Source: a virus | Virus record (IMG/VR): IMGVR_UViG_3300034063_000935 | Location: 1-32,933 of that record | DNA length: 32,933 nt | Reading direction: 5' to 3' (one strand) | In this document: positions 6,743 through 32,886 of the stretch, piece after piece | Layout of the letters: the number at the start of each line of letters is the position of its first letter | Position numbering within the stretch: position 1 is the first letter of the stretch | Position numbers and translations under genes: made by a program | Notes under the pieces: generated by a model | The model's input: the letters and a program-made list of their open reading frames with translations, nothing else | What the model was told of the DNA's origin: nothing | Databases searched by the model: none

Positions 6743-7738
6743 ATGGCCAGCGTGAACGTCCATCGCGACCGCCTGTACCTGCTGGCCAAGGTGCCGCGCC
6801 GCGACGGCAGCCCAGGCCTGCAGCAGTGCCGGATTGCCCTGCGGCTTGACGACACGCCAGTGAATCGCCGCACTGCCGCCAAGCAGCTGCAGACCCTGGA
6901 GCAGCAGCTGGCGACCGGGACGTTCGACTGGGCGTACTGGAACGATCAGGAGCAGGGGATCACCTGGCGGGATGCCATCGCCAGGTTGCATCGTGCTCGG
7001 GTGGTATTGGGCCGCACGTCGGAGACGACCTGGGAGATCAACTATATGGGCCGGCTGCGGCAGATCCCACCAGGGGCAGCCGTGACCACTGAATCGATAG
7101 CGCAGGCGCTGCAGCGTTACGACCGCTCGACGTGTTCGTACAAGGAGCTCTGGTATCTGCTGCGGCATATCGCCAAGCTGACAGGCGTGCCGTTTCCCGA
7201 GCTGCCAGTGCCGACCTATGGCCAGGCCCAGCTGGTGGCAGTGCCTACCGATGCGGAGATCATCAGCTGGGTCGAGGCGTCAGATGCCGCGGCCTGGTAT
7301 TTCGGGATGATGGCCACGTACGGGCTGAGGCCGCACGAAGTGGAAGGCTCGCGGCTGATCGAGAAGGATTACTGCCAAATATCAGACAGCACTAAAACCG
7401 GATTCAGGACGGTGGTGCCGGTGCCACGCGAATGGGTTGAGCGGTTCAGGCTGCGCGATCGGCGGCTGCGGCCTGGTGGCGTGCCGGGTGAACGACCTGA
7501 TGCCGTGTCGAAGTGGCTGCATAAGGAGCTACGCCGGCTGGGTTTGCCATGGCGGCCTTATGCGCTCAGGCATGCGTACGCCGGTCGGCTATGGAAGCAA
7601 GGCGGCAGCCGGCTGGATATCTACACCGCTGCCAGGCTGATGGGCCACACGCCGCAGCAGCATGCCAATACGTACCGTGCCCACATTCAGCCGCATGCGG
7701 TGGCAGAGGCGGCAGAGAGGGCGTTAAGGGGTGGGTGA
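6743..7738 (+). CDS. int: Tyrosine recombinase / phage integrase
   Basis: This 331-residue protein has the C-terminal catalytic domain of tyrosine recombinases. The first Arg is R196 in YGLRPHEVE, the Lys is near 218 (STKTGFRT), box II is YALRHAYAGR (R276), the second His is H302 in LMGHTP and the nucleophile is Tyr311 (ANTYRAH). The first His of the usual HxxR is replaced by Tyr273. The N-terminal 110 residues include an arm-type start (RDRLYLLAKVPRRDG) and a core-binding region. It would insert the phage genome into the host chromosome. It converges on the minus-strand operon containing an excisionase-like gene. Confidence 0.88.
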   Translation: MASVNVHRDRLYLLAKVPRRDGSPGLQQCRIALRLDDTPVNRRTAAKQLQTLEQQLATGTFDWAYWNDQEQGITWRDAIARLHRARVVLGRTSETTWEINYMGRLRQIPPGAAVTTESIAQALQRYDRSTCSYKELWYLLRHIAKLTGVPFPELPVPTYGQAQLVAVPTDAEIISWVEASDAAAWYFGMMATYGLRPHEVEGSRLIEKDYCQISDSTKTGFRTVVPVPREWVERFRLRDRRLRPGGVPGERPDAVSKWLHKELRRLGLPWRPYALRHAYAGRLWKQGGSRLDIYTAARLMGHTPQQHANTYRAHIQPHAVAEAAERALRGG

Positions 7739-11372: not shown

Positions 11373-12329
11373 GTGCCCGCCAGCTCTAGCCAGTCCTGGT
11401 GGCTCGACTCAATCGGTCGGATTCCCCTGCTCACGCCCGCCGAAGAGATCGAGCTGGGCACGGCAATTCAGCGGTGGCAGACCCACCCCGACCCGTGCCC
11501 ACCAGGGATCAGACGCCGCGGCCAGCGGGCCCGTGATCGGTTCGTCTCGGCGAACCTGCGGCTAGTGGTGGCGTACATCTCCCGCCGCTGCCACCGGCTG
11601 GCCAAGGCCCACGACCGGGAGGATCTGATCCAGGCGGGGAACCTGGGCCTGATCACGGCGGCGGAGCGGTTCGACCCCAGCAAGGGATACCGGTTCAGCA
11701 CTTATGCGTATTGGTGGATCCGGCAGGCGATCAACCGCTGGGTGGATCAGCACGGCCGGGCCATCGCGATTCCCGGCAGCCACTGCCAGCACCTGAGCAG
11801 GCTGGAGGCCGTGACCCAGCGGCTGGAGCGGGAGCTGAACCGCAGCCCCACGCAGGCGGAGATCGCCGCTGAGCTGGGCGTGTCGCTCAGGGTTTTTGAG
11901 CAGGTGCTGGAGAACGGCCGGGGCATCGCCAGCCTTGACCAGGTGGTGACCGATGACGGGCTGGAGCTGGGCAGCCTCTGCGCCACATGGGACCGCAGCC
12001 CTGAGGATGAGGAAGAGCAGCGGGAACGTTGGCGCCAGGCGGAGCAGCTGCGGGGGCTGATCGCCAGGTTGGCGCCGCAGGATCGCCGGCTGCTGTCGCT
12101 GGCCTGGGGCCTTGATGGGGTGGAGATCCCGAGGCCTGAGCTGGCCCAGCAGGAAGGGCTGAGCACACGTGCGCTCGACGTGCGCCTGGAGCGGCTGCAG
12201 GCATCACTGGCGTCTGAGTCGGTGCAGCTGGTGCTGGTAGCAGTTCAGCGGATACCAGTTGCAGTGGTGAAACGCTGCAGACGGCGGAAGGTGCGTGATG
12301 GCGTGCAGCTCGCGCTGGCGGTGGCGTGA
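11373..12329 (+). CDS. Phage-encoded group 2-type sigma-70 family factor
   Basis: This 318-residue sigma factor starts with GTG. Region 1.2 is SWWLDSIGRIPLLTPAEEIE (8-27), close to cyanobacterial group 2 sigmas. Region 2 runs from RFVSANLRLVVAYISRRCHR to RFSTYAYWWIRQAINRW (about 56-125). Region 3 includes RSPTQAEIAAELGVSLRVFE (about 155-175) and region 4 covers LIARLAPQDRRLLSLAWGLD and a helix-turn-helix (about 228-280). A roughly 40-residue C-terminal extension follows. It would bind host core RNA polymerase and redirect it to phage promoters. It sits alone on the plus strand, divergent from the Gp157 gene over copy 3 of the element. Confidence 0.88.
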   Translation: MPASSSQSWWLDSIGRIPLLTPAEEIELGTAIQRWQTHPDPCPPGIRRRGQRARDRFVSANLRLVVAYISRRCHRLAKAHDREDLIQAGNLGLITAAERFDPSKGYRFSTYAYWWIRQAINRWVDQHGRAIAIPGSHCQHLSRLEAVTQRLERELNRSPTQAEIAAELGVSLRVFEQVLENGRGIASLDQVVTDDGLELGSLCATWDRSPEDEEEQRERWRQAEQLRGLIARLAPQDRRLLSLAWGLDGVEIPRPELAQQEGLSTRALDVRLERLQASLASESVQLVLVAVQRIPVAVVKRCRRRKVRDGVQLALAVA

Positions 12330-16449: not shown

Positions 16450-16829
16450 CAGTCCGGCGGTGGTGGCACTGTCTCCAGTGTGAGCTGAACATCGTGGCCG
16501 CCGCAGGGCAGGTCATCCACCGAGCCCTCGCCGGCGTAGATCCAGCGGTATTCGCTCGGCACGTAGTCGGCGAGGCTGCTGTCGCTCACCACCTCATCAG
16601 GCAGGTCGAACGATTCATACTGCCCCTGTTGGCCGGCGTAGTGGTTCCAGATCTGGAGCATCTCCGACTCGCTCAACCGCAGGAACGACAGCCGCAGCTG
16701 CGAGGCGACAAACACGTTGCTGCCCCTGACCCGGTTCTGTGCGCCGCTGTAGGCGTCGATGACCGTGGCGGGATACTCGCCAGGGGTGAACGTGCGGGAG
16801 CTGGGGATCAGGGCGGGGAATGTGGTCAC
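16449..16829 (-). CDS. Minor tail protein, paralogue 1
   Basis: The 126-residue protein (TTFPALIPSSRTFTPGEYPA) has SEMLQIWNHYAGQQGQYESF as the central helix/strand and a C-terminal RWIYAGEGSVDDLPCGGHDV. I recognise the TFPALxPSSRxFTPGxYP type start from cyanobacterial phage tail genes. It overlaps the giant tail-tip gene upstream and its own paralogue downstream. It probably sits at the tail tip. Confidence 0.6.
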   Translation of the reverse strand: MTTFPALIPSSRTFTPGEYPATVIDAYSGAQNRVRGSNVFVASQLRLSFLRLSESEMLQIWNHYAGQQGQYESFDLPDEVVSDSSLADYVPSEYRWIYAGEGSVDDLPCGGHDVQLTLETVPPPPD

Positions 16830-19800
16830 GATGGCGGCATGTAGAACGCTGTGGAGGGCGGGGTGAAGCTGCCGGTACCGTAGAGGGCGGAGTTGGAGAG
16901 GCGGATTTGGCTTATGGCGGCGCCGTTGACATTCTCAGATTCCAGGAGAACGCCAATACTTTTATTAGAAAACAAAAGGCTTTCAGCGGTAAACGACGTT
17001 AAAAGAATTCCTTTGTAGTGCAGAGTGTAGCTTGTGGTGCTGTGCTTTTGTATGGCAACATGGTTTAGCGATGTAGCATCTGATGTGCTAATTATTTCTT
17101 CATGGGTCTCGAAAATGCTTTCATCTTCGCTGGCAAGCTGCAAATTGATCTTTGGAGTGCCATCTTCAAACTCAACATTTTCTATGACGTATCTGCTTGA
17201 CAGTTGCACAACAAAGCCATCAAGGGGGGCAAGGCCCTCGGGATCGTTTCTAAAATCAACTTGAACAAAAGTAGTGAAATTATCTCCACCCGTCGCCAAG
17301 GATGTTCCAGCCCTCCACCAGAACTCAAGCGTAAACGGCCCCGAGGCCACATCAAAAGCGCTATTGATGTTGTCAAATCTCCAGCTTGGCCCTTCTAGCA
17401 ATTCTGCATACGGTGCCTGCAGCGCATTGACTCCTTGGAAAACTACAGTTTCGTAAGGATCGGCCAACTCAGAAACCGTAACGCCTTCAATCGTTACCTC
17501 CGGCGGCGGCTCATCGGGATACCAGATCACCAGCTCTTCTGGCGGTGTCGACGGCACAAAATCAACCGTCAACGTATTCAAGAACGAAACATCCGTGAAC
17601 CCACCTTCCCAGTCTGTGAACTCCACCGTCGCCCGGTAGGTGAGCTGCTCAGCCGGATCCTCAGCCGCTGGCGGGAAGTCGCCTTCGCCAAACGAGATCA
17701 CGAATTGCCCCTCAAAGATCCGGTTGCCCGGCGGCACGGGCACACCCTCGGCCTCCGCGTCCCATGGCTCAGCGATCTCGCCAGTAAATGAAACGGTCGG
17801 CAGGCTTTCAGGCTGCGGGTTTGCCAGCTGGCCGCCGGGCAGCAGGGCCACCACGGACGTGCTGGCGATGGTCACATCTAGCGGGCCCAGGTCTTCCCGT
17901 GGCGCCCGCCCGGTCGGCGCCAGGCGCATCGCAACCGTGAGCGTGGTCTCATCCCACGTCGCGCTGTGGAAGTAAATCCCGGCCTCGTACTCAGCCAGCG
18001 GGTCCACCTGGTCATCGGCCTCCTGTTCTTCCTTCGCTTCCTTCACCTTGATGATCAGCTCCTCCACCAGCTCCGGATCGAAGTCCAGGTCCAGGTCTTC
18101 CTTGATCACCTCCTTCACCGGGTCATCAAGCAACTTGATCAGCTCCTCATCCTCTAGGTCACGGACAATATCCGCCAGCTCTTCATCGGTGAGATCTCGG
18201 GCCTCATCCGCCAGCTCTTCATCGGTGAGATCTCGGACTTCCTCAGGGGTCAGCTCCTCAAACAGCTCCTCCAGCTCCTCATCGGTCAGGTCTCGGATCA
18301 GGTCGGCCAGATCCTCATCGTCCAGCTCGCGAACGAGATCAGCTAATTCTTCATCGGTGAGCTCCCTAAGTTCATCTGCTACGTCATCCTCTAGGTCGTC
18401 GATGATCTCAATAAGCTCGTCATCGGTGAGATCATCAATGAACTCATCCAGCTCCGCATCGTCAATCAGGTTGTCGTCTGCTGGCTCATCAATCGGATAA
18501 TCCTCCTGGTCGATCTCAACATCACCGCCGCCCTCGATCGCCGGATCCTCGGGGCCGGGGGTGATCGTGTCATCCTCGCCATCCTCGGGAACGGTGGTGT
18601 CGCTGGCGGAGTTCAGGTCGCAGCCTTCACCTGTCAGGCCTGAGGGGAACAGCACGCCGGACACCGTGGCGCTCATCACGTCCAGCGCGATCAGGCTGCG
18701 CAGCTGGTTGTCCATCGGCAGATGGTTGGCCTCATACACCACCTCCCCAGCCAGCGTCCGCTGTATCCGCTCGACTTCATAGATCCGGTCGTGCAGCGTG
18801 CTGCCGCCGTCTTCCGTGGCGTGCAGCAGCCGAACCCGGATGATGCTGCCCTGCTCCAGCGTTGAGGTGTGCAGGCCAGGCCGCGCCCTGAACCGGATCG
18901 AATGGCTGCTCCTGACCCGCTGGGCCAGGATGTAGGCGCCGATCCTGACGGCGTGCTCTTCCCTGGTGCAGAACTCGGAAAGGTCGTGCGACTCGTAGGG
19001 GCCATTCGCCGCCGTGCCGTCGTAGCGAACCTCAGAGGTTCGCACCACCCCAATGTCGGACTCGTTCTGCTGCCGCCAGATCACCTGGCATACAAAGGGC
19101 TGGCGACTTGTCCAGTCCACGTACTGAATATCTACAGAGCCGGGAATGATCGTGTCGTAGTCGAAGACGTAATCAATCGCCAGCGCTGTTGTCTTGATTG
19201 TGTAGTCCTCGTTAATCGGCAGCAGTGGCTTAAGCCCTACCTTGCCTTTGCTGGTAACGGGCCTTAGCAGGTGATACCGTCCCCATGCTGTTACCAGCTC
19301 GTCATAATTGACGGGCTTGGTAATCCAGCAATTGGTAGTGATGTTGTTGGCGTTGAGAAATCGACTTGCCGTCTGAATCGAGGCAGTGTCAATCAGTGCC
19401 GCCGGAATCCTGGCGCTGTTGACCATCATCCAGTAAGCCAGGTCAGCGAAGCTGTCGCTCGACACATTCGACTGCGCGTCGGCCCATCTGTACACCTCGA
19501 TGCCATCACGAATGAAGGCGTGAACCTGGCGATTCCAAACGTCAAACCCATTGGGAATCGTCACCTCAAACGACATCGTGGTCATGCCGTCATAGGTGCC
19601 GACTGACCCGCAGAAGTTGGACGCCTCGGGTTTGTTGAATCCCGTTTGAGGAACGATCGCGTTTTCGGGAATCCAGCTGCCGGCGCGGCGATCGTAGGTC
19701 TGCTGGAAGCTGCCAACCCGGCACTGGCGTTGGAATACATCCCGCACCTGGATGTCGCCGATCCGCCCTTCACTCAGAACCAGGTGGTAATACGCCGTTA

Positions 19801-20050
19801 CCGCGTTGTTGACGTCGTTCTCAAACCGGCATTCAGTGGCCCGTGGGCTGATCAGGATTCCACCTGCGCCCGATCGCCTGCGGGCGAACACGATGGGCAC
19901 CGGATCGCCGATGGCGTGCGCCTGCTGGGGAACATTCAGCGGGCTGCTGCTGTCGGCCCCAGCGCTGTATTTCCGGCGGGCGGCCAGCCTGGCCTGGGTG
20001 CGCCGGTTGACTTCCCATACGGCATCATCGAAGAACACACCCCCGCTCAT
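16826..20050 (-). CDS. Tail-tip / host-specificity protein with acidic repeat domain and LamG-like C terminus
   Basis: This is a 1074-residue protein. Residues 1 to about 460 form the conserved tail-hub-like part, with a beta-rich start (AIGDPVPIVFARRRSGAGGI) and EGSIIRVRLLHATEDGG-type segments. Residues about 485-690 are highly acidic and include about nine units of a 12-residue repeat (RDLTDEELADIV type, about 534-644). Beta domains follow, and the last 170 residues (GPFTLEFWWRAGTS and onwards) look like a LamG/concanavalin-like carbohydrate-binding domain. That terminal part is encoded by markedly AT-richer DNA. It probably contacts the host surface. The repeats may form a flexible or calcium-binding stalk. 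Confidence 0.75.
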   Translation of the reverse strand: MSGGVFFDDAVWEVNRRTQARLAARRKYSAGADSSSPLNVPQQAHAIGDPVPIVFARRRSGAGGILISPRATECRFENDVNNAVTAYYHLVLSEGRIGDIQVRDVFQRQCRVGSFQQTYDRRAGSWIPENAIVPQTGFNKPEASNFCGSVGTYDGMTTMSFEVTIPNGFDVWNRQVHAFIRDGIEVYRWADAQSNVSSDSFADLAYWMMVNSARIPAALIDTASIQTASRFLNANNITTNCWITKPVNYDELVTAWGRYHLLRPVTSKGKVGLKPLLPINEDYTIKTTALAIDYVFDYDTIIPGSVDIQYVDWTSRQPFVCQVIWRQQNESDIGVVRTSEVRYDGTAANGPYESHDLSEFCTREEHAVRIGAYILAQRVRSSHSIRFRARPGLHTSTLEQGSIIRVRLLHATEDGGSTLHDRIYEVERIQRTLAGEVVYEANHLPMDNQLRSLIALDVMSATVSGVLFPSGLTGEGCDLNSASDTTVPEDGEDDTITPGPEDPAIEGGGDVEIDQEDYPIDEPADDNLIDDAELDEFIDDLTDDELIEIIDDLEDDVADELRELTDEELADLVRELDDEDLADLIRDLTDEELEELFEELTPEEVRDLTDEELADEARDLTDEELADIVRDLEDEELIKLLDDPVKEVIKEDLDLDFDPELVEELIIKVKEAKEEQEADDQVDPLAEYEAGIYFHSATWDETTLTVAMRLAPTGRAPREDLGPLDVTIASTSVVALLPGGQLANPQPESLPTVSFTGEIAEPWDAEAEGVPVPPGNRIFEGQFVISFGEGDFPPAAEDPAEQLTYRATVEFTDWEGGFTDVSFLNTLTVDFVPSTPPEELVIWYPDEPPPEVTIEGVTVSELADPYETVVFQGVNALQAPYAELLEGPSWRFDNINSAFDVASGPFTLEFWWRAGTSLATGGDNFTTFVQVDFRNDPEGLAPLDGFVVQLSSRYVIENVEFEDGTPKINLQLASEDESIFETHEEIISTSDATSLNHVAIQKHSTTSYTLHYKGILLTSFTAESLLFSNKSIGVLLESENVNGAAISQIRLSNSALYGTGSFTPPSTAFYMPPS
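18171..18236 (-). repeat. Exact 30-base direct repeat within the acidic domain
   Basis: The 30 bases at 18171-18200 recur exactly at 18207-18236, offset by 36 bases (12 codons). They encode the adjacent units RDLTDEELADEA and RDLTDEELADIV. Less perfect copies continue over about 18120-18450. The exact repeat implies recent duplication or gene conversion, and unit number could vary. Confidence 0.8.
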
Positions 20051-20505
20051 AACCTGGCCCCCACTCCCATCAGTCTCGTTGTCAGTATCCGGGGCGGTAC
20101 GGTTGCGCCAACCGGCGCCAGGGCAGTCCCCAGGCTCAGCGTGATCGAGGTGCCCGTAGACCGTGCGCTGACCGCTTGGCCATCGAACTGAGCGATCAGC
20201 GTCATTCCCACAGGTGGGCCGCTTGCCCCGGCCACCGAGTCAAACTCGTACATCCGCAGCTGGGCCAGCCAGCCGGCGGCGAGGGCCTGGTCCACGGCAT
20301 CGGAGACGGTGGACGTGGCCGGCATGACGATCGCGATGTTGCGCTCAGCGCCCGGGTCGCCGTCGCTGATTCCCGGTACATCGAACTGGACGTGATCCCA
20401 TTGGAAGGTCTCAAACGAAACCGTCCCAGACCAGTACATCTGCCACCGCGCACGGACGACGTTCCCCAGATCAGAGAACCGCAGCAGCTGCGCCTGTGCC
20501 CTCAT
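20047..20505 (-). CDS. Tail assembly/minor tail protein
   Basis: This 152-residue protein (MRAQAQLLRFSDLGNVVRAR) sits between the tape measure and the tail-tip genes, with 4-base overlaps on both sides. It is beta-rich (GTVSFETFQWDHVQFDVPGI, then AERNIAIVMPATSTV and LRMYEFDSVAG). The position equals that of lambda L/K-type or DUF1833-like tail proteins. It is likely a component of the distal tail; the exact family is uncertain. Confidence 0.6.
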   Translation of the reverse strand: MRAQAQLLRFSDLGNVVRARWQMYWSGTVSFETFQWDHVQFDVPGISDGDPGAERNIAIVMPATSTVSDAVDQALAAGWLAQLRMYEFDSVAGASGPPVGMTLIAQFDGQAVSARSTGTSITLSLGTALAPVGATVPPRILTTRLMGVGARL

Positions 20506-23500
20506 AGTCCCCCCAGCGCCAGCCTGGCCTCAGGTCTGCGCAGGTCGTCAAACACCCGCTCAGCCACCCGCTGCAGGCCGCGTTCAAAGTCATCCACCGA
20601 GACCCAGCGGGAGCCGTCCGCCTGCTGCAGCACCGGGCCGGTGGTGATGTTGATCTGAGCTCGCCGGGTTGTGGTGGAGCCCGCGTCGCTGGCGGCGGTG
20701 GAGGGGATCACGTCCGCGCCGCGCTGCCCCGCCAGGAACCGGGAGCTGGCGGCCTGCATCTTGGATTCGGGAATGATGTACTCGCGCTCCCCGCCCTCGC
20801 CCACCATGGCCAGTGTGGGGCGGCTGACGATGCCGCCTTCGGCGAAGGCGGGAACAGTGATGGTGGGGATCAGCGGAATGTCAGAGCCGGGCAGTGCATT
20901 GAACGCCTTGATTAACCGGTTGATCAGCCCCGCCACGGTGTTGATCCGGCTGGCGACGTACTGCAGCATCCCGCGCACCGCGCTCTGGATGCTCTCGATC
21001 ATTCCAGTCCAGATCCCCTGCACGAAATCGGCCACGCTGCGCATGGCGCGGGGCATGAACTCGATCACGGTTTGCCATGCGCTGGCGATCGGTTCAGCGA
21101 CGTACTGCCTGAACCCCTGCCCCAGGCTGTTCCATGCGCCAACGATCGCGTTGCTTGCGCCAACCATCAGATCGCCGATCGAGTTCATCAGCGCCACCCA
21201 TGCGTTGCTCACGGGCCCAACCAGGTAGGTATTGAACGCCTGGGCCAGCGAGTTCCACGCCGAGTTGATCAGCTGCACCACCGACCGGATGGCCGCATCC
21301 AACCCCTGGGCCAGGGCGGTCCACGCCCGCTGAATCGGTGCCACGACGTAGGTACTGAAACTGTCCGTGATCGCGTCCCAGCTGGTGCGCAGCAGGCCCG
21401 CAGCAGCGCTGAGCAGACGGGGCAGCGCCTGCACCAAGGTGGCCCACCCGGCTTGAATCGGTTTCACCACCAGCTCGCCGAACGACTGGGTCAGCGGCTG
21501 GAACACGTTGGAGCGCAGCCAGTCAACCGCTGCCGACGCCGGCCGCCGAATTAGGATTTCCCACAGCGCCATCCATGGCCGGATCAGCAAGGTGTCAACC
21601 ACAGCCCAGGCGACCTTGAGGCCTACATCAAAGGCGGTGCGCACGAAGCCGAAGTAGGCAGTCACCGCACCCCTCAATCCATCCCAGACGCCAGCCCAGA
21701 ATTCACGGATGGGCTCACCCCACTGCCACAGCGCCTGTAGACCCTGGCCAATGGCGGGCCCCAGCCAGGCGAAGAATCCGGTTACCACCTCTTTCACTGC
21801 ATCCCATGCACCGACCCAGAACTCACGGATCGGCTCGCCCAGATCCCAGAGCACCTTGATGCCGTCAACCAAGGCACCTGCGAACCATGCGAAGAACGAA
21901 CGGATGGCGTCCCGCGCTGCGGTCCAAGCGCTGACCATGAACTGTGGGATCTGCAGTGCCCATGCGCCGATGGTCTTGGCGCCCTCCGCCAGCTTGCCGG
22001 CGAGCCAGCCGAGGAACTCCATGATCGGTTTGCGGAACGCGATTGCCATGGCCACCACGGCGGCGATGGCCAGCACGGTCCAGCCAACAGGGCCCAAGAA
22101 GGCCAGCAAGCCAGGAATGAACACGCTGCCGACCCAGCCGATGAATCCCAGCAGGGCGCCTTTCATTGCGGCTACCGCAACGATCACCACGGTCTGCAGG
22201 CCGGCCCAGCCCACCGCTAGGGATGAGATCGCGAGCATTGCCTTGAGGCTGCCCAGCAGAGTGATGAGCGACACGATCGCTGGCGCCAAGATCACCAGCC
22301 CGGCCAGCGCCGCAGTCAGGGTCACCACTACGGCAGTTAGCAGCGGGAACCGCCCGGCGAGATCCGCCACGACGGACAGCACTGGCGCCAAGGTGCCGAG
22401 CATCAGATTCAGAGCAGGCAGAAGGCCCTCGCCAATGGCGATCTGGAGCGCCTTGATGTTGTTCTGCAGCAGCTGGAAATTGTTGGCCGATGTGCCAGCC
22501 CTTGCCTCAAACTCGGCCAGCATCGATCCGGCGTATTGGCTCTTGTCGCCAACCAGTCCGATTGCCTGATCAAACAGCTGCATGTTGGTGATCAGGGGTG
22601 TTATCGCTCGCGCCTCATCACCGAACACCTCGCTGATTGTGGACACCCGCATTTCAGCGGGCATCTGCGAAATGCGCTGGAACACATCGCGGATCGTTCC
22701 GACTGCATCGGTCTGCATGTCTTTGGCCACTTGGTTCACATCCAGGCCCAGCGTCTTGAACGCTGCCGCCTGTTTCGCCGTGGCGGATTCGCCCTTGGTG
22801 AGCGCCTTGATTAGGTTGCGGAAGCTGGTGGCTGCCACTTCAGGTTCAGCACCGGCCGCGATCATTGCGGAGCCCAGTGCGGCGGTCTGCTCGGTGGTCA
22901 TCGCCACTTGCTTGCCCACCGCGCCAGCCCGCAGCATGAAGTTGCTCACCTCAGCGGCCGAGCTGGCCATGTTGTTGCTGAGGAAGTTCATGGCGTCGGC
23001 CAGGTCCACCACCTCCGGCTGGCTCAGCCCCAGGCTGGTGCGCAGTTTGGCCATTGCCGTGCCGGCCTCATCTGCCGTGATGTCAAAGGCCACTCCCATC
23101 TGTGCCGCCTGCCTGGTGAACTCCGCCAGCTCCTCACGGGGGATGCCTGACTGACCGGCTGCGGCCATGATCGCGGCCAACCCCTCGGCGCTCACCGGCA
23201 GCTCTTTGCTCAGGCCGATGATCTCCTGCTTCATTTCCTTCAGGCCCTCGGCTGACTCCAGGCCGGGCACCACCTTGCGCACGTCGGCCATGGCGCTCTC
23301 AAAATCAATCGCAGCCCGAACGCTGGTGCCCAGCGCAACGCCGATGCCTGCGGCGCCAGCTGCGGCGGCCTGCCAGGTGGCTGAGTTCACAACTGCGGCG
23401 AAGGATGTTTTGGCGCTGCTGGCCGCCTTCTCCGCCCCACCGATCGCCTTCTCCAGCTTGGTGATCTCTTCCAGTCCTACCGTCTTCGCCGCGATCCTCA

Positions 23501-23525
23501 GGACCGCTTCCATGTTCATCGCCAT
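20502..23525 (-). CDS. Phage tail tape measure protein (TP901-type)
   Basis: This 1007-residue protein has the TP901 core from about residue 60 to 340 (AIDFESAMADVRKVVPGLES, then SAEGLAAIMAAAGQSGI and FGDEARAITPLITNMQLFD). Hydrophobic helices lie at about 370-500. Next come long WP/IREFW-containing repeats (LGEPIREFWVGAWDAVKEVV, then WGEPIREFWAGVWDGLRGAV) and further similar helical units. Near the C terminus are AFAEGGIVSRPTLAMVGEGG and EREYIIPESKM, typical of tape measures. Tape measure length sets tail length; the protein's size fits a siphovirus tail. The downstream gene and the chaperone upstream overlap it by a few bases. Confidence 0.9.
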   Translation of the reverse strand: MAMNMEAVLRIAAKTVGLEEITKLEKAIGGAEKAASSAKTSFAAVVNSATWQAAAAGAAGIGVALGTSVRAAIDFESAMADVRKVVPGLESAEGLKEMKQEIIGLSKELPVSAEGLAAIMAAAGQSGIPREELAEFTRQAAQMGVAFDITADEAGTAMAKLRTSLGLSQPEVVDLADAMNFLSNNMASSAAEVSNFMLRAGAVGKQVAMTTEQTAALGSAMIAAGAEPEVAATSFRNLIKALTKGESATAKQAAAFKTLGLDVNQVAKDMQTDAVGTIRDVFQRISQMPAEMRVSTISEVFGDEARAITPLITNMQLFDQAIGLVGDKSQYAGSMLAEFEARAGTSANNFQLLQNNIKALQIAIGEGLLPALNLMLGTLAPVLSVVADLAGRFPLLTAVVVTLTAALAGLVILAPAIVSLITLLGSLKAMLAISSLAVGWAGLQTVVIVAVAAMKGALLGFIGWVGSVFIPGLLAFLGPVGWTVLAIAAVVAMAIAFRKPIMEFLGWLAGKLAEGAKTIGAWALQIPQFMVSAWTAARDAIRSFFAWFAGALVDGIKVLWDLGEPIREFWVGAWDAVKEVVTGFFAWLGPAIGQGLQALWQWGEPIREFWAGVWDGLRGAVTAYFGFVRTAFDVGLKVAWAVVDTLLIRPWMALWEILIRRPASAAVDWLRSNVFQPLTQSFGELVVKPIQAGWATLVQALPRLLSAAAGLLRTSWDAITDSFSTYVVAPIQRAWTALAQGLDAAIRSVVQLINSAWNSLAQAFNTYLVGPVSNAWVALMNSIGDLMVGASNAIVGAWNSLGQGFRQYVAEPIASAWQTVIEFMPRAMRSVADFVQGIWTGMIESIQSAVRGMLQYVASRINTVAGLINRLIKAFNALPGSDIPLIPTITVPAFAEGGIVSRPTLAMVGEGGEREYIIPESKMQAASSRFLAGQRGADVIPSTAASDAGSTTTRRAQINITTGPVLQQADGSRWVSVDDFERGLQRVAERVFDDLRRPEARLALGGL

Positions 23526-24261
23526 TACCGCTTCCCTCCCTTCTTCGGCTGCTTCGGCTCAGCCGCCTTGTTGATCAGTTCCTTGGCGCGGCTCTCCATG
23601 ATCTGCAGATCCTCCAGAGCCTGGCGCCGGTTACCCACAGCGTAAAGATCCATCATCTGTAGAACGACGCCATAGTCGAGGCCCACCACGCCGGAGCCGC
23701 CAACACGCCACTGGGTCTGGCACTGCAGGAACAGCATCACAGCGTCTTCATGCTCAGGCCACACCTCAAATGTCTTGGGCTGTAGGACACTCTCCGGCAG
23801 GCAACTGGCATCAGCTCCGTAGGCCTTCAGGTCTGCCAGCAGGTCATCATTGGCGCCGCCATCACCGTGCCACCAGTGATCGACAGCGCCCGTCAGTTTC
23901 CCTTCTTGGCCACCTCCATGGAGTTGAACCAGGCGCGGATGATCTGGCCTGCGATGGTGGGGATCTCCAGCAGCTGATCCAGTGCAGCCTCACTGAATGG
24001 CACATCCTTGCCGCTGTCGTCGGTGATGCCGGCCCAGCCGATCAGGATCTCCTTCGCGGCGGTCTTGTCGTCCAGTGATTCCTCATCGGCGCGGCCGAGC
24101 TCAAGGGCCCGAGCCAGCTTGATGATCTCGTTGATCCGGCTCTGCGGCAGCCGCTTGAACTCAGCATCGAAGGAATGTTTCTCCCGCCGGCCGCCATCGA
24201 CCGGGATGAGCAGGGGCACCGGCCAGGTGTAGCTGGCCGACTGCTTGAGAACGAATGCCAT
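23525..24261 (-). CDS. Tail assembly chaperone GT fusion by -1 frameshift
   Basis: The upstream chaperone (23893-24261) stops directly after GGGAAAC. The -1 frame is open from there to 23525, with no stop, and encodes LTGAVDHWWHGDGGANDDLL, a linker, then EVWPEHEDAVMLFLQCQTQW and a DUF1799-like tail. A fusion of about 245 residues (122 + 123) results. This equals the lambda gpG/gpGT arrangement, where the fusion binds the tape measure. The downstream half could also start at an internal codon at 23764, but frameshifting explains the missing ribosome binding site. Confidence 0.85.
23893..24261 (-). CDS. Tail assembly chaperone, G-type (zero frame)
   Basis: This 122-residue protein (MAFVLKQSASYTWPVPLLIP) has an N-terminal beta segment with HSFDAEFKRLPQSRINEIIK, then a helical domain (EILIGWAGITDDSGKDVPFS, LDQLLEIPTIAGQIIRAWFN). 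The sequence and position between tail tube and tape measure match gpG-like tail chaperones. It ends KKGN, the decoding of the slippery site. It escorts the tape measure before tail tube polymerisation. Confidence 0.8.
   Translation of the reverse strand: MAFVLKQSASYTWPVPLLIPVDGGRREKHSFDAEFKRLPQSRINEIIKLARALELGRADEESLDDKTAAKEILIGWAGITDDSGKDVPFSEAALDQLLEIPTIAGQIIRAWFNSMEVAKKGN
23896..23902 (-). other. Slippery heptamer GGGAAAC
   Basis: On the minus strand the zero-frame reads AAG GGA AAC TGA, so the heptamer follows the XXXYYYZ rule with the stop one codon later. Lambda uses GGGAAAG in the same place of its G/T pair. Confidence 0.85.
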
Positions 24262-24294: not shown

Positions 24295-25251
24295 TCAGGT
24301 GAGCACCAGGGTGAACTCGTCGTTGCCTGCGCTGGTGGGCACCGGCATGAATGGCAGGTTGAGCATCATCACGCCATCGGAATCGGCATAGCTGGGGCCG
24401 TCCAGATTGCAGGTGGGGGCGTTGAAGGTGACAATGTTCCCAGCGGTCTGGCCGTGCTGCCAGCCGATCGCGCCAAGGGTCTGCGCCGACACTGCGGCGA
24501 AGAAATCCTTTTGGCCGGAGCTGCTGCCAACAATCGGGGACTCGATCACCAGCTCACCGCTGGGGGCCCGATCGACGATCGGGATGCTCTGGCTGCAGCC
24601 GGCCAGCTGCCGGAATGGGGTCTCGTTGTTCAGCGCCAGGGAGAAACTCTCCATGCAGGCGCTGAAGCTGAACGCCGTCACTCCGGTGGTGTTGGTGGAG
24701 TTCACCACCACCGGAGCGGCCTGGTTGGCGAAGGTGGGCGCCGTCGCTGCTGCAGCGGTCACGGCGTTGTAGATCCCCATGAACTCAAAGCTGATTCGAG
24801 GGATCTCGCCCACCGCCAGGTTCAGGGTGGCGGTGCCGCGGCAGCCGGTGAGCAGGTGGCGGTTGCCGTCGGCGTTGAAGTCGAGCGACAGTCCGACGAT
24901 GCTGCTGCTGGCCGGAGCGTAGGTGACACTGGCCGGGCCGGGGCTGGCTCCTACCACCGTCTCGCCAAACCCGCAGGCCCTCAGGCAGCGGCCCCAGCGG
25001 GGTGCGGTACCGGCAGTGCCGGATCCGGCGATCTCAACGTCGAAGGTCACCGAGCCCATCCGCTGGCTGACCACCCTCTCGCGGTTGCCGAAGAACGGCA
25101 GCACCAGCTCGCGGTCGAGCAGGGACACGTCCAGCGGGGTGATATCGAGGTTGCTCACCAGCAGGGCATCGGTGCCGGCGAAGGTGGCGGCAGTGCCATA
25201 GGTGGATTCAACGGCCGCCATGAGCAGCCGCTTACGAGTCAGCAGGGTCAT
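24295..25251 (-). CDS. Major tail tube protein
   Basis: This 318-residue protein (MTLLTRKRLLMAAVESTYGT) has the N-terminal start with VESTYGTAATF common to tail tube proteins, and beta-rich repeats (VTFDVEIAGSGTAGTAPRWG, SIVGLSLDFNADGNRHLLTG, GTATLNLAVGEIPRISFEFM). Placement just before the G/GT chaperones is canonical. It forms the tube of the phage tail. The 3' end leaves a 33-base gap before the chaperone start. Confidence 0.8.
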   Translation of the reverse strand: MTLLTRKRLLMAAVESTYGTAATFAGTDALLVSNLDITPLDVSLLDRELVLPFFGNRERVVSQRMGSVTFDVEIAGSGTAGTAPRWGRCLRACGFGETVVGASPGPASVTYAPASSSIVGLSLDFNADGNRHLLTGCRGTATLNLAVGEIPRISFEFMGIYNAVTAAAATAPTFANQAAPVVVNSTNTTGVTAFSFSACMESFSLALNNETPFRQLAGCSQSIPIVDRAPSGELVIESPIVGSSSGQKDFFAAVSAQTLGAIGWQHGQTAGNIVTFNAPTCNLDGPSYADSDGVMMLNLPFMPVPTSAGNDEFTLVLT

Positions 25252-26172: not shown

Positions 26173-26310
26173 CTATGGCTGGATCCGGTCAACCAACAGC
26201 ACCAGCACCGGCAGGATCAGCAGCAGGAGCAGCGGCAGGGGGATCGTGGTGGATGTCGCCAGCCATGGGATGAGGATCCAACAGGCGACAATGAACAGGA
26301 TGGAAAACAT
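26173..26310 (-). CDS. Small two-helix membrane protein, 45 aa
   Basis: The sequence MFSILFIVACWILIPWLATS and PLPLLLLLILPVLVLLVDR gives two transmembrane segments with few charges. It starts in a TGATG overlap with the lyase-like gene. Tiny membrane proteins like this can be holins or superinfection-exclusion proteins, but nothing decides between them here. Confidence 0.5.
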   Translation of the reverse strand: MFSILFIVACWILIPWLATSTTIPLPLLLLLILPVLVLLVDRIQP

Positions 26311-28133
26311 CAGGAGAACACCGGCAGGCTGCCGCGCCAGTCCACCGACAGGCTGCCAGCGGGAGTCTTCACCTTGAGCACGCGGCCGGCAAGGCTGATG
26401 GGGCCCGACTGGATGACAGCAGCGGAACGGCCGGACTGGGCCTGGCCGTTCACCGCCAGACGCGGGAACGATTCGATGATCTGGCTGGCCGGGTTGAATG
26501 GCCCCCAGGTGGCGGTGATGGTTCGGCCGCGAACGTTCCTGTAGGTGACGGACGGCCCTGCCAGATTCACCGACAGCGGAGCAGCCAGCACAGCAGCGCG
26601 GAACGCAGCGAAGGAGGCGAACTCAGCCGTCGAGGCCACGTCCATCACCACGACGTTCTGAGCGCCGCTGCTGCGGAGCACGAGCATGTCGGGGAACTCG
26701 CCGGAGATCAGCTCCGACGGGCCCCAGGCGCGGATGGCGACGTAGGTGGAGCCCTCGCGCAGGAAGTGCCAGCCGCTTGCCGTGGCGTATTCGTCGAGGC
26801 CCTTGGGCCAGCGAATCCAGGCCTGCTGGATTATCGGGCCCCGGTAGGTCTCCCACGTGCTGTCTGCGCGGCCCTTGAACGGATCGGCTGGCGGGATATT
26901 GAACAGCGAGATCAGCGTGGATTCGTGCTGGGCGTTCTGCTGAAACGGTGAGCTGCGGCTGAGCCAGGCGTACTGGCTAGGGGCAGTGCGCCAATAGGGG
27001 TGAGTGCAGGTGATCTCGGCCAGCGGTTTGCTGGTCTTGAGCAGAATCTGATGGCCGATGCGTTCGCTCAGGCCACGGCCACGGGCTGGCACTGGGCTGT
27101 TGATGTTGGTGGTGTAGTTCCCTGAGCCGATGGCGTACTCCTGATGGCGGTAAACGGTGCGCTCGGTGTAGGCAGCATCACCACGGGCGAACTCTCCGAA
27201 CCCTGCGGCAGACCCGCGCAGGGTGAACGGCACGCCAGCACCAGCGGCCAGATCAGTCAGCACCGCAGGCGGGCGCCAGGCGGAGATGGCAGCGCACACG
27301 GCGAAGTGGCGGGCCTCCTCAAACGAGTTCAGCGACGGGAACCGCATCGGCGGGGTGTCGCTCACGGGCATCAGCTCAGCCCAATACAGCCAGTACAGCG
27401 CCTTGAGGTGGGTGTTGAGGATCGTGTTGCGCTGCGGGTCGATGTTCCGGTAGGGGCCAGGCCGGTTGAATGGCGCGATGGTGTTGCCGTGAAAGAAGTT
27501 AGCCGCCATGTCTGCGGCGTGATAGGTGAGCACGGCATCAGCGGCAGCCTTGAGCTCGGGATCGGTGGAGCAGTTGTAGAGCGCGTGCAGCGGGTAGAGA
27601 TGGACCGGCAGGTAGTTCGGGGAGAGGTGTTCGTTGTATGCCTTGTCGAAATAGCTGCTCAGCGTCACCAGCAGGCGTTGTTTCACGACAGCGCCAAACT
27701 CAGCGCTTGACATGCGCCGTTTGGTAATCGCGTCATACCAACCCGTTTCGCTGGGCCAGAGCTGGGCGAATAGCGAGGCGCCGACGTACTTGATCAGGAA
27801 ATGGTTTTCAGTGCCATGACTGAGCAGGCCGCTGATTGTTTTCAGCTTGGCCACCAGCGTGGCCCGTTGCTCCGGCGTGAAGCGGTCCCAGTGCTTGCAG
27901 AGGATCCAGCCCGCGCCAGCAGGCATGAACGACTCATTGAACCGATACTGCGTGCTGGTCAGCAGCGCCATGAATCGGGCAATCGGCGCGGGATCAGCAG
28001 GGTTCAGCGCGAGCCGGGCTAGAACATCAGCCCAGCCGAACTTCTGCGCAGTCGGGCCATTTGGTGGACTCGGCGCGAGGACGACGTTGCGATAGGTGCC
28101 GATCATCCATGCTGCGCGGGTTTCAACAGCCAT
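26310..28133 (-). CDS. Predicted glycan lyase-like protein (alpha/alpha-toroid plus beta domain)
   Basis: The 607-residue protein has an N-terminal helical half (to about 320) with GTENHFLIKY (107-116), NEHLSPNYLPVHLYPLHALY (167-186) and repeated helices (TDPELKAAADAVLTYHAADM). These resemble the Asn/His and Tyr of alpha/alpha-toroid polysaccharide lyases such as heparinase II/III-like enzymes. The C-terminal half is beta-rich (YRHQEYAIGSGNYTTNINSP near 333 and later strands). It may cut a host capsule or sheath polysaccharide. It lies in the fibre cassette between head and tail genes. The lyase call is by motif resemblance only. Confidence 0.55.
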   Translation of the reverse strand: MAVETRAAWMIGTYRNVVLAPSPPNGPTAQKFGWADVLARLALNPADPAPIARFMALLTSTQYRFNESFMPAGAGWILCKHWDRFTPEQRATLVAKLKTISGLLSHGTENHFLIKYVGASLFAQLWPSETGWYDAITKRRMSSAEFGAVVKQRLLVTLSSYFDKAYNEHLSPNYLPVHLYPLHALYNCSTDPELKAAADAVLTYHAADMAANFFHGNTIAPFNRPGPYRNIDPQRNTILNTHLKALYWLYWAELMPVSDTPPMRFPSLNSFEEARHFAVCAAISAWRPPAVLTDLAAGAGVPFTLRGSAAGFGEFARGDAAYTERTVYRHQEYAIGSGNYTTNINSPVPARGRGLSERIGHQILLKTSKPLAEITCTHPYWRTAPSQYAWLSRSSPFQQNAQHESTLISLFNIPPADPFKGRADSTWETYRGPIIQQAWIRWPKGLDEYATASGWHFLREGSTYVAIRAWGPSELISGEFPDMLVLRSSGAQNVVVMDVASTAEFASFAAFRAAVLAAPLSVNLAGPSVTYRNVRGRTITATWGPFNPASQIIESFPRLAVNGQAQSGRSAAVIQSGPISLAGRVLKVKTPAGSLSVDWRGSLPVFS

Positions 28134-30951: not shown

Positions 30952-32886
30952 TCAGACGTTCTTGGAGCGGTAGAACCCGCGGAAGTCCTTCACCGCAGCG
31001 CCGAAGTCAAATCGGGCCAGCAGTTCCACACCATCGGGGTCGCGCTTCTCGTTCGTCGTCACAGTCGGCCCTTCTTCGCCGGCCAGGTAACCGAACACAA
31101 TGCCCTCGACAGAACCGGGGCTGGCGGCCAGATACCACACATCGGCGGCACCGTCGAGGCGAGGCTCAACGATCAGTTCGATGCCGTTCATCTGGGCGTT
31201 CACCGCCGGGCCGTTGTCGCCGGTGCGAGCGGCCGGGGCGTAACCGGTCGGGAACAGGAACTGGATGGCGGTGGCCTCCAAGTCCGTGGGCACCATCAGA
31301 TACGAAGGCGTGAGATTGATGGTGTTACCGGCCAGGTCGGTCTGCTTGCGCATCGCCTTCTTGGCGGTGTTCATCCCCGTGGTGGAGATGGTCAGGCCGC
31401 CAGCGCCGCCCATGTTGTTGTGGGCTGCATTGAACAGCGCCACATTGTCCACGCTGGTGACAGCGTTGCCGGTGATCAGGCCCCAGATGATGTTGCTCTC
31501 CAGCCGGCGGAAACCGCGGCCGAGCATCTCAGGAACCCGCTCCAGGGCGCTCAGGTCATCGTTGATGATCGCCTGGCGGGTCACCGTCACCTTGCGGGCG
31601 TAGGTGGCCAGCTTCCAGGTGTGCTGACCTTCAACCAGGGTGCCGGCCTTGTACTCGCCACCTTCAAGAAGTGCCTCAGGAGTGAGTGCACCGGCCACGA
31701 TCAGGTCGTTGGCGTTCTTGAAGTCGGGCAGGTTCCGCTGCCGTGCGATCGGCCGCCAGGTGTGGGGCTCCTCGGCATAGGCGGCGTCCAAGGTCTTGCC
31801 GGCCAGGTTGGAGAACAGCAGCGGGAAATCGCTGGTGCTGTGGAAACCACGCTGCACCAGTTCGCTCTTGCTCATGCCGCGGGTATTGGTACCGCGGGAC
31901 TCCAGATACTGGCGGGCCAGCTCCAGAAGGGTGTAGGAGCGATACTCCCGGCCCAGCTCGGCATCCTCACCCTTGAGGGCGCCGGGGCGTACGCGGGCCT
32001 CCAGGCCCAGGCTGATGCCGCGCAGCAGGGTGTCACCAGCGTCGCGGGTAACGGCGATCTGGGCGGGGTGGCCCAGGGGGGTAGGTCCGTCAGTGGAGCG
32101 GGTGTCGCCGCCCTCCAGCCGGATGCGCATCATGCGCACGGCCTCGCGGCTGCACTCGGTAACGGTCTTGCCGGAGCGAATCAGTTCGTCAGTCTGCTCG
32201 GCGGTCAGGCCGGCGTCCTGGCCGAGGCGGAGCAGATCGCGCTCGCGGCGGAGTTCGGAGGCGGTGCGCTGCAGTTCGGTATCTGCGGCGGCCACGGGGG
32301 CGGGTTGGGGGGAGGGATCGGCGCTGCGCTGAGCGTCGATAGGCGCCGGGTCACCCCCGGCCTGGATGAGGTCTTCGGTCATGGGGTGATCAGCGGAATT
32401 GATCGTGTGCTGTTGGTCGCCGCGCATCACGGCATGCGTGTCCTGCCCGATCGGCACCAGAGAAACCAGATTCGGCTCCCAGTCGGTGGCGATCAGCAGG
32501 TTGCTGGCGCGGTCTTCGCGGTGCCGGTAGATCCGGGCATCCACAGAGAACCGAGCCGAGCCGGTCCGCAGCCGCGGCAGAGCGATGTCCATCGCAGCGG
32601 CGGGGCCGTCCACTACCACCTCACCGATCAGCTCGGTAATGCCTTCGTCGTTCCGCTGCAGAGACAGGTTGGTGACCGCGCCCCAGATCGTGTCTGAGCT
32701 GCGCTTGTGGTCGTAGTCCGTCGGCAGCGGCCGCTTGGGCCACCGGATCGCTTCGTTGGTGTGGAGCAGCTGGAACCCATCGCCAACGTCGGCGTCCGTG
32801 CTGATCACGATCGTCGCGGTCCGAGTTTCCTCGTTCCACGAGTTCGGCGCCAGCAGCGCCATCCGTTGGATCTGTTGATGGTCCAT
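30952..32886 (-). CDS. Prohead protease-major capsid protein fusion (HK97 type)
   Basis: This 644-residue protein joins an N-terminal prohead protease (about 1-165: PTDYDHKRSS with the catalytic His, TGSARFSVDARI with the catalytic Ser) to a charged scaffold-like segment (ELQRTASELRRERDLLRLGQ) and the capsid domain (from about 300: VTVTRQAIINDDLSALERVP, ALFNAAHNNMGGAGGLTIST, PAVNAQMNGIELIVEPRLDG). Such fusions occur in many temperate phages. It makes the procapsid and cleaves its own linker. Portal and terminase genes should lie upstream, beyond the window. Copy 4 of the conserved element lies just before the start. Confidence 0.85.
   Translation of the reverse strand: MDHQQIQRMALLAPNSWNEETRTATIVISTDADVGDGFQLLHTNEAIRWPKRPLPTDYDHKRSSDTIWGAVTNLSLQRNDEGITELIGEVVVDGPAAAMDIALPRLRTGSARFSVDARIYRHREDRASNLLIATDWEPNLVSLVPIGQDTHAVMRGDQQHTINSADHPMTEDLIQAGGDPAPIDAQRSADPSPQPAPVAAADTELQRTASELRRERDLLRLGQDAGLTAEQTDELIRSGKTVTECSREAVRMMRIRLEGGDTRSTDGPTPLGHPAQIAVTRDAGDTLLRGISLGLEARVRPGALKGEDAELGREYRSYTLLELARQYLESRGTNTRGMSKSELVQRGFHSTSDFPLLFSNLAGKTLDAAYAEEPHTWRPIARQRNLPDFKNANDLIVAGALTPEALLEGGEYKAGTLVEGQHTWKLATYARKVTVTRQAIINDDLSALERVPEMLGRGFRRLESNIIWGLITGNAVTSVDNVALFNAAHNNMGGAGGLTISTTGMNTAKKAMRKQTDLAGNTINLTPSYLMVPTDLEATAIQFLFPTGYAPAARTGDNGPAVNAQMNGIELIVEPRLDGAADVWYLAASPGSVEGIVFGYLAGEEGPTVTTNEKRDPDGVELLARFDFGAAVKDFRGFYRSKNV

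Follow-up and report, generated by a model that had tools for sequence, protein, structure and literature searches.

Frameshifted tail assembly chaperones are a classic and widespread kind of phage gene pair, of which gpG/gpGT of phage lambda is the example closest to hand. In lambda, a slippery heptamer (G_GGA_AAG; heptamer and frames as read from NC_001416) lies at the end of the first open reading frame (ORF), the second ORF is a C-terminal extension in the -1 frame, and the pair precedes the tape measure gene; for the function of G and GT we follow a review (PMC5009743). Frameshifting has been measured at 6-7% for two phage tail chaperone genes, according to the GeneTack work (PMC3711429). 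Here we describe a pair with the same gene position, the same kind of heptamer at the end of its first ORF and the same -1 extension in IMG/VR virus record IMGVR_UViG_3300034063_000935, an uncultured virus of bacteria. The window, meaning the whole stretch of DNA analysed, is 32,933 bases long, and all coordinates of the pair are on its minus strand. We consider it highly probable (roughly 0.93) that a lambda-like -1 ribosomal frameshift yields G and a G-T fusion from this locus, with a downstream RNA hairpin probably helping. The features concerned are:

24261-23893, minus strand: G-type tail assembly chaperone ORF, 0 frame, 122 aa (PHROG 569 and PHROG 313)
23902-23896, minus strand: slippery heptamer GGGAAAC, in phase as G_GGA_AAC
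23895-23893, minus strand: 0-frame stop TGA, 0 nt from the heptamer
23896-23525, minus strand: T part, -1 frame, 123 aa after the slip, DUF1799, without its own start near the beginning
24261-23896 joined to 23896-23525, minus strand: predicted G-T fusion, 245 aa
23890-23852, minus strand: predicted RNA hairpin, 5 nt after the heptamer, with a 16-bp stem (arms 23890-23874 and 23867-23852, loop 23873-23868)

The frames and the heptamer are directly observed. The 3' end of the G ORF reads ...AAG GGA AAC TGA, and the -1 frame, which has a stop at 23992 (minus strand), stays open past it until a TAA whose last base is 23525. This T stop shares bases with the start codon of the tape measure gene in the sequence TAATG. 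Base 23896 would be read twice after a -1 slip. A sequence-only reading of this DNA had proposed such an arrangement, with GGGAAAC in phase and abutting the stop of G, the -1 frame open into the downstream part and a 245-residue fusion as the product. The frames bear this out, and the span it gave (23525-24261) is exact, the minus strand being left unstated. Its description of the downstream half as DUF1799-like also stands, as DUF1799 (PF08809) covers fusion residues 164-228 at 67.4 bits (Pfam cut-off 26). GGGAAAC occurs three times in the 32,933 bases, counting both strands, and an in-frame X_XXY_YYZ motif (Y = A or T) is unique to G among the 15 minus-strand ORFs checked (14 others plus G). 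Given the Lys-Gly-Asn peptide, pooled codon usage predicts such a heptamer in ~6% of cases.

Relatives were gathered as a first set of loci, drawn from IMG/VR, two metagenome-assembled genome (MAG) contigs, named phages and the window (201 of 209 with a G match, 8 without), and as a wider set of 333 loci after three more scans. Left out of the wider set were 8 loci without a G match and one G ORF cut by a contig end; L001, L156 and L210 had been removed beforehand. Because many loci come from one contig that was fetched two times, counts of distinct sequences are given below. In the first set, an in-frame slippery heptamer is present in all 201 loci (GGGAAAC 107, AAAAAAC 85, AAAAAAG 8, AAAAAAT 1), and T lies in the -1 frame in 200 of them, the last being on a contig where T is not matched. 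In the wider set, each of the 324 complete G ORFs carries a heptamer near its end, one of them (L325) atypical. Its 120 distinct sequences comprise 77 with AAAAAAC, 35 with GGGAAAC, 6 with AAAAAAG and one each with AAAAAAT and AAAAAAA, and T is matched in the -1 frame in 117 (the exceptions are L325, L160, which has no T match, and L307, whose contig ends soon after). For the peptides seen, the heptamer frequency expected from pooled codon usage is about 3-11%, according to the residues, versus presence in every relative.

The distance from heptamer to stop is 0 nt in 92 of 98 distinct sequences. Heptamer type changes at least 7 times on a tree of G built from 79 of these 98 with the heptamer codons excluded (few columns, many unresolved forks), and the X_XXY_YYZ phase and identity rule are kept through all of the changes. 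The preceding codon follows suit: before GGA AAC it is AAG (32) or CGG (4), and before AAA AAC it always ends in A (n=57; AGA 29, CGA 16, GCA 5, ACA 3, AAA 2, GAA 1, CTA 1). Arginine codons thus track heptamer type, being CGG in 4 of 4 cases before GGA AAC and CGA or AGA in 45 of 45 distinct sequences before AAA AAC, with CGA and AGA together making up 13% of arginine codons in these genes. The switches and the matching codon choice, as compared across these sequences, point to selection for slipping. Gene position, DUF1799 in the -1 frame, conservation of the heptamer, switches that preserve slipperiness and the lack of a conserved internal start all support the lambda-like frameshift that the sequence-only reading had put forward.

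The absence of an early start in T is likewise a direct observation. There is no ATG, GTG or TTG until 44 codons past the heptamer, and this first candidate has no Shine-Dalgarno match, in keeping with the earlier claim that the downstream half lacks its own start signal. Nine such codons are listed in the T half. Four have a partial Shine-Dalgarno match; the first two candidates match at 0 and 3 bases, and a 5-base match occurs only at ATG 23599, 99 codons in and within DUF1799. Across 98 distinct sequences, the first possible start falls 4-52 codons after the heptamer, and one sequence has none. In 64 distinct 18-codon post-slip segments free of ATG, GTG and TTG, the -1 frame shows a mean nonsynonymous divergence (pN) of 0.28 against a synonymous divergence (pS) of 0.55, and the 0 frame contains a stop in 64 of 64. 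This stretch of T is conserved as protein before any possible start, and its translation must therefore come from upstream.

These results bear on the other ways in which two such ORFs could be explained. T might be made on its own, with initiation at a codon inside the sequence (GTG 23764 or ATG 23737, for example) or with re-initiation at a CUG overlapping the stop. GTG and ATG codons are available from 44 codons on, and several GenBank records give the second half as its own gene. However, the candidates have weak Shine-Dalgarno matches apart from the one buried in DUF1799, the varying position of the first start does not describe one conserved site, the 18 codons ahead of it are conserved as protein, and the CUG turns to CUA where the stop is TAA or TAG (e.g., L032, L068, L075, L078). 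A conserved internal start with no fusion peptide had been named as what would overturn the frameshift; as far as sequence can tell, no such start is conserved in the relatives, and we regard separate initiation as very improbable. A fusion made by RNA polymerase slipping on the mRNA, instead of ribosomes, seems slightly more remote still. Relatives with AAAAAAC or AAAAAAG do have runs of at least 6 A, but the site in the window has only GGG and AAA runs, and what is kept across the switches is the X_XXY_YYZ phase, not a homopolymer. Least credible of all is a single gene that has decayed or been mis-sequenced. A sequencing indel can put two halves in different frames, and no tool result points to one here; moreover, about 117 distinct sequences, from many metagenomes, share this arrangement, and five isolated phages have it too.

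The ribosomal frameshift appears to have a companion structure that the sequence-only reading did not include and that the present analysis adds. Stems in bacterial -1 frameshifts usually begin 5-9 nt after the heptamer. In the window, a stable stem lies 5 nt from it and appears to be under selection beyond coding, which is what is expected of a 3' stem-loop stimulator. As controls we used synonymous redraws that keep the T-frame peptide and its codon usage; against these the window hairpin has a z of -2.41, with 31 of 2000 redraws folding as well. The mean z is -2.38 for 22 distinct GGGAAAC sequences, -1.60 for 49 with AAAAAAC and -0.27 for 3 with AAAAAAG. For 51 representatives (<85% identity), it is -1.64 (s.e. 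0.15) at the hairpin, versus -0.65 to +0.12 at 18 other places along G and T, a comparison in which the stretch overlapping the heptamer stands outside the control. At least 8 pairs, in a stem or domain that starts within 12 nt, are present in 58 of 63 representatives from the wider set, and z is negative in 56 (mean -1.61).

The pairing itself was followed in a structure alignment of 54 of 69 distinct segments, 15 being left out (3 with AAAAAAG and 12 whose peptide could not be aligned gap-free); the alignment first dropped 25 segments, of which 10 were restored by eye. In these 54 ungapped sequences, the 9 lower pairs form 7.76 times on average compared with 6.06 in synonymous redraws, and the upper 7 pairs 5.33 times compared with 4.70, with 0 of 1000 redraws reaching the observed value in either case. 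The most telling pairs are columns 18 and 46 (C-G in 33, U-G in 11, U-A in 7) and columns 15 and 49 (C-G in 38, G-C in 9), and 3 of 5 covariation measures lie above all 500 shuffles. The hairpin looks selected beyond coding constraint, and it likely acts as a frameshift stimulator. We do not rely on the z of -4.30 obtained for a 55-nt fold, which was cut out after seeing the 100-nt fold (z -1.66, 10 of 200 shuffles as good). An upstream Shine-Dalgarno stimulator was also considered, with GGAGGTGG standing shortly before the heptamer; its median p against synonymous redraws is 0.56 (66 distinct sequences), and it was rejected as a selected element.

A number of results weigh against the frameshift account or against its hairpin. 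The slip itself and the fusion protein are predictions. Pfam places neither half with lambda G or lambda T, DUF1799 being its only match, and Foldseek searches of the G and T models against solved structures returned nothing at E 0.001 or better. Klebsiella phage KOX1 (L156, 1597-2237) has a DUF1799 gene annotated as a joined product, with no classic in-frame heptamer in the stretch searched, and it may use a shorter slip site. The weak relative L325, whose sole heptamer is AAAAAAA at 42 nt from the stop, lacks a T match and is counted as a probable chance hit. For the hairpin, two of the 5 covariation measures do not beat the shuffles, 5 pairs are changed on both sides versus 4.3 in shuffles, and kinship among the sequences also inflates the covariation counts. 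When the partners are slid by one codon (-3), 74.4% of cells still pair and the score is 0.182 against 0.207, in part because the upper stem is displaced by one codon in some lineages, as folds of L061-type sequences show. RNAalifold gives a weak consensus (-3.39 kcal/mol), 5 of the 63 representatives lack a stem of at least 8 pairs there, and among 40 windows placed along G and T one has a more extreme z than the hairpin (24246-24184, minus strand, z -3.42). That fold lies near the start of G and was observed in the window alone; it may be regulatory or arise by chance.

It is accordingly worth asking whether the frameshift is real and the hairpin a by-product of coding and base composition with no stimulating role. 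Lambda works without a hairpin (z +0.97), covariation is mixed, and the stem sits in a well conserved peptide. Redraws that keep both peptide and codon usage nevertheless fold worse, and the effect is confined to this one place, which makes a by-product unlikely, though far from negligible. More speculative is the relation between hairpin and heptamer. AAAAAAG has been reported to be far more shift-prone in E. coli than AAC-type heptamers. This aquatic siphophage group could have a two-part signal, of heptamer and selected hairpin, in which the hairpin offsets the weaker AAC-type heptamers and AAAAAAG lineages are free to lose it, an idea that we hold tentatively and think somewhat doubtful. 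Among the AAAAAAG lineages, there is no hairpin signal in L052, L138 and L329, and it is kept in L160, L161 and L330; with these 6 distinct sequences spanning z values from +0.9 to -3.19, a trade-off between heptamer strength and hairpin is not established.

The occurrence and rate of slippage, the role of the hairpin and the chaperone function are inferred from these comparisons, and the frameshift model would run as follows. Ribosomes on the G ORF would arrive at G_GGA_AAC beside the UGA, where most would terminate and release G (122 aa). In a minority, both tRNAs would slip back one base and re-pair on GGG AAA, and translation would carry on through T in the -1 frame, producing the 245-aa G-T. 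Tandem slippage would compete with termination at the adjacent UGA, and the hairpin would probably pause the ribosome on the slippery site, raising or setting the frequency. By the lambda parallel, G molecules would form a coat on the tape measure protein, and the few G-T molecules would bring in the tail tube protein through their T (DUF1799) domain, with both G and G-T leaving before the tail is completed. The genes of these expected partners, the tape measure protein for the chaperone and the tail tube protein for the T domain, flank the pair:

24295-25251, minus strand: tail tube protein gene, directly upstream (PF18906, E 1.5e-18)
20502-23525, minus strand: tape measure protein gene, directly downstream (PF10145, E 1.7e-39)

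Family assignments for the two halves also come from PHROGs. G matches PHROG 569 over residues 1-122 (E 5.7e-19) and PHROG 313, 'Tail assembly chaperone', over residues 58-109 only (E 1.6e-6), and T is placed in phrog_680. Both phrog_569 and phrog_680 are labelled 'tail length tape measure protein', a label probably carried over from the neighbouring gene. An NCBIfam search of the pair found nothing, and when solved structures were searched by sequence the best hit, a ribosomal protein at E 0.082, was not credible. The AlphaFold models used for the structure comparison have pLDDT values of 74.2 (G) and 85.2 (T).

Elsewhere in the window, a 607-aa ORF without a PHROG match lies within the run of head and tail genes (26310-28133, minus strand). 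A 1074-aa tail protein has a run of acidic repeats like LTDEELADL (16826-20050, minus strand), and its weak MgtE_N match probably comes from the composition of those repeats. One ORF (30952-32886, minus strand) holds both major capsid protein and protease and is matched over its full length, at about 30% identity, in Rhodobacter phages. An integrase-like ORF (6743-7738, plus strand) suggests that the phage may be temperate, and there are a sigma-factor-like ORF at 11373-12329 and a helicase-like ORF at 828-2198.

By G-T protein, the closest isolates are the Synechococcus siphophages S-LBS1, S-CBS1 and S-CBS3 (38-46% identity), and more than 80% of the fusion is covered in five named phage records, of S-LBS1 and two each of S-CBS1 and S-CBS3. 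A megablast of 8000-32933 against named phages gave no match. A cyanobacterial host is plausible for this virus, as these closest isolates infect Synechococcus. Relatives of this phage module also occur in contigs binned as Planctomycetota and Phenylobacterium MAGs (L157, L158), which are either prophages or binning errors.

A slippery site in such a gene pair will not surprise specialists; moderate interest attaches to the hairpin, with its signs of selection, and to the heptamer switches that nature supplies as a series. The analysis provides an exact annotation, a joined 245-aa gene, for this large set of uncultured relatives of the Synechococcus siphophages, and would explain DUF1799 here as a frameshifted T half. 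Heptamer switches and hairpin together offer a natural series for how phages set the ratio of G to G-T outside E. coli. Literature titles and abstract openings, a coverage that leaves out the main papers on the subject, yielded neither a downstream hairpin in a tail chaperone frameshift nor the frameshift of this group. No paper in the literature search combined DUF1799 with frameshifting, and the word frameshift is absent from the S-LBS1 paper.

How, then, does the locus compare with known systems? The three Synechococcus siphophages have A_AAA_AAC followed by TGA with T in the -1 frame, thus AAAAAAC instead of GGGAAAC. Their records give two genes with T shortened and no joined coding sequence, and the S-LBS1 record (MG271909.1, SLBS1_A18-A20) calls its G gene an ABC-transporter ATPase component, a name at odds with the G-T relationship. 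The Rhodobacter phages RcapMu (genes 49/50, JN190960) and RcWaterboi (47/48) share G_GGA_AAC followed by TGA, with DUF1799 in the -1 frame, and in the GenBank record of RcapMu, a looser match to the fusion, the note 'potential -1 frameshift' is placed on the opening G of GGGAAAC (locus position 2360). They differ in protein sequence (about 32% identical) and have a hairpin of other sequence in a similar place (z -1.4 and -1.65). The G/T frameshift of the haloarchaeal tailed viruses HCTV-1, -2 and -5, likened here by description and not by sequence, uses the same two main heptamers in archaeal hosts. The bacterial dnaX and cso2 frameshifts, as covered in the same review (PMC5009743), also combine a slippery site with a 3' stem-loop. 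However, these are cellular genes, and dnaX has in addition a 5' Shine-Dalgarno stimulator of the sort unsupported here. Lambda itself differs in having AAG as the second codon, where AAC is found here and the heptamer abuts the stop directly, and in belonging to Pfam families that the present pair does not match. The lambda site also has no supported hairpin (253 of 300 redraws as good), and a hairpin is therefore no requirement of the G/GT kind, of which this group is a further member, its hairpin being a probable addition.
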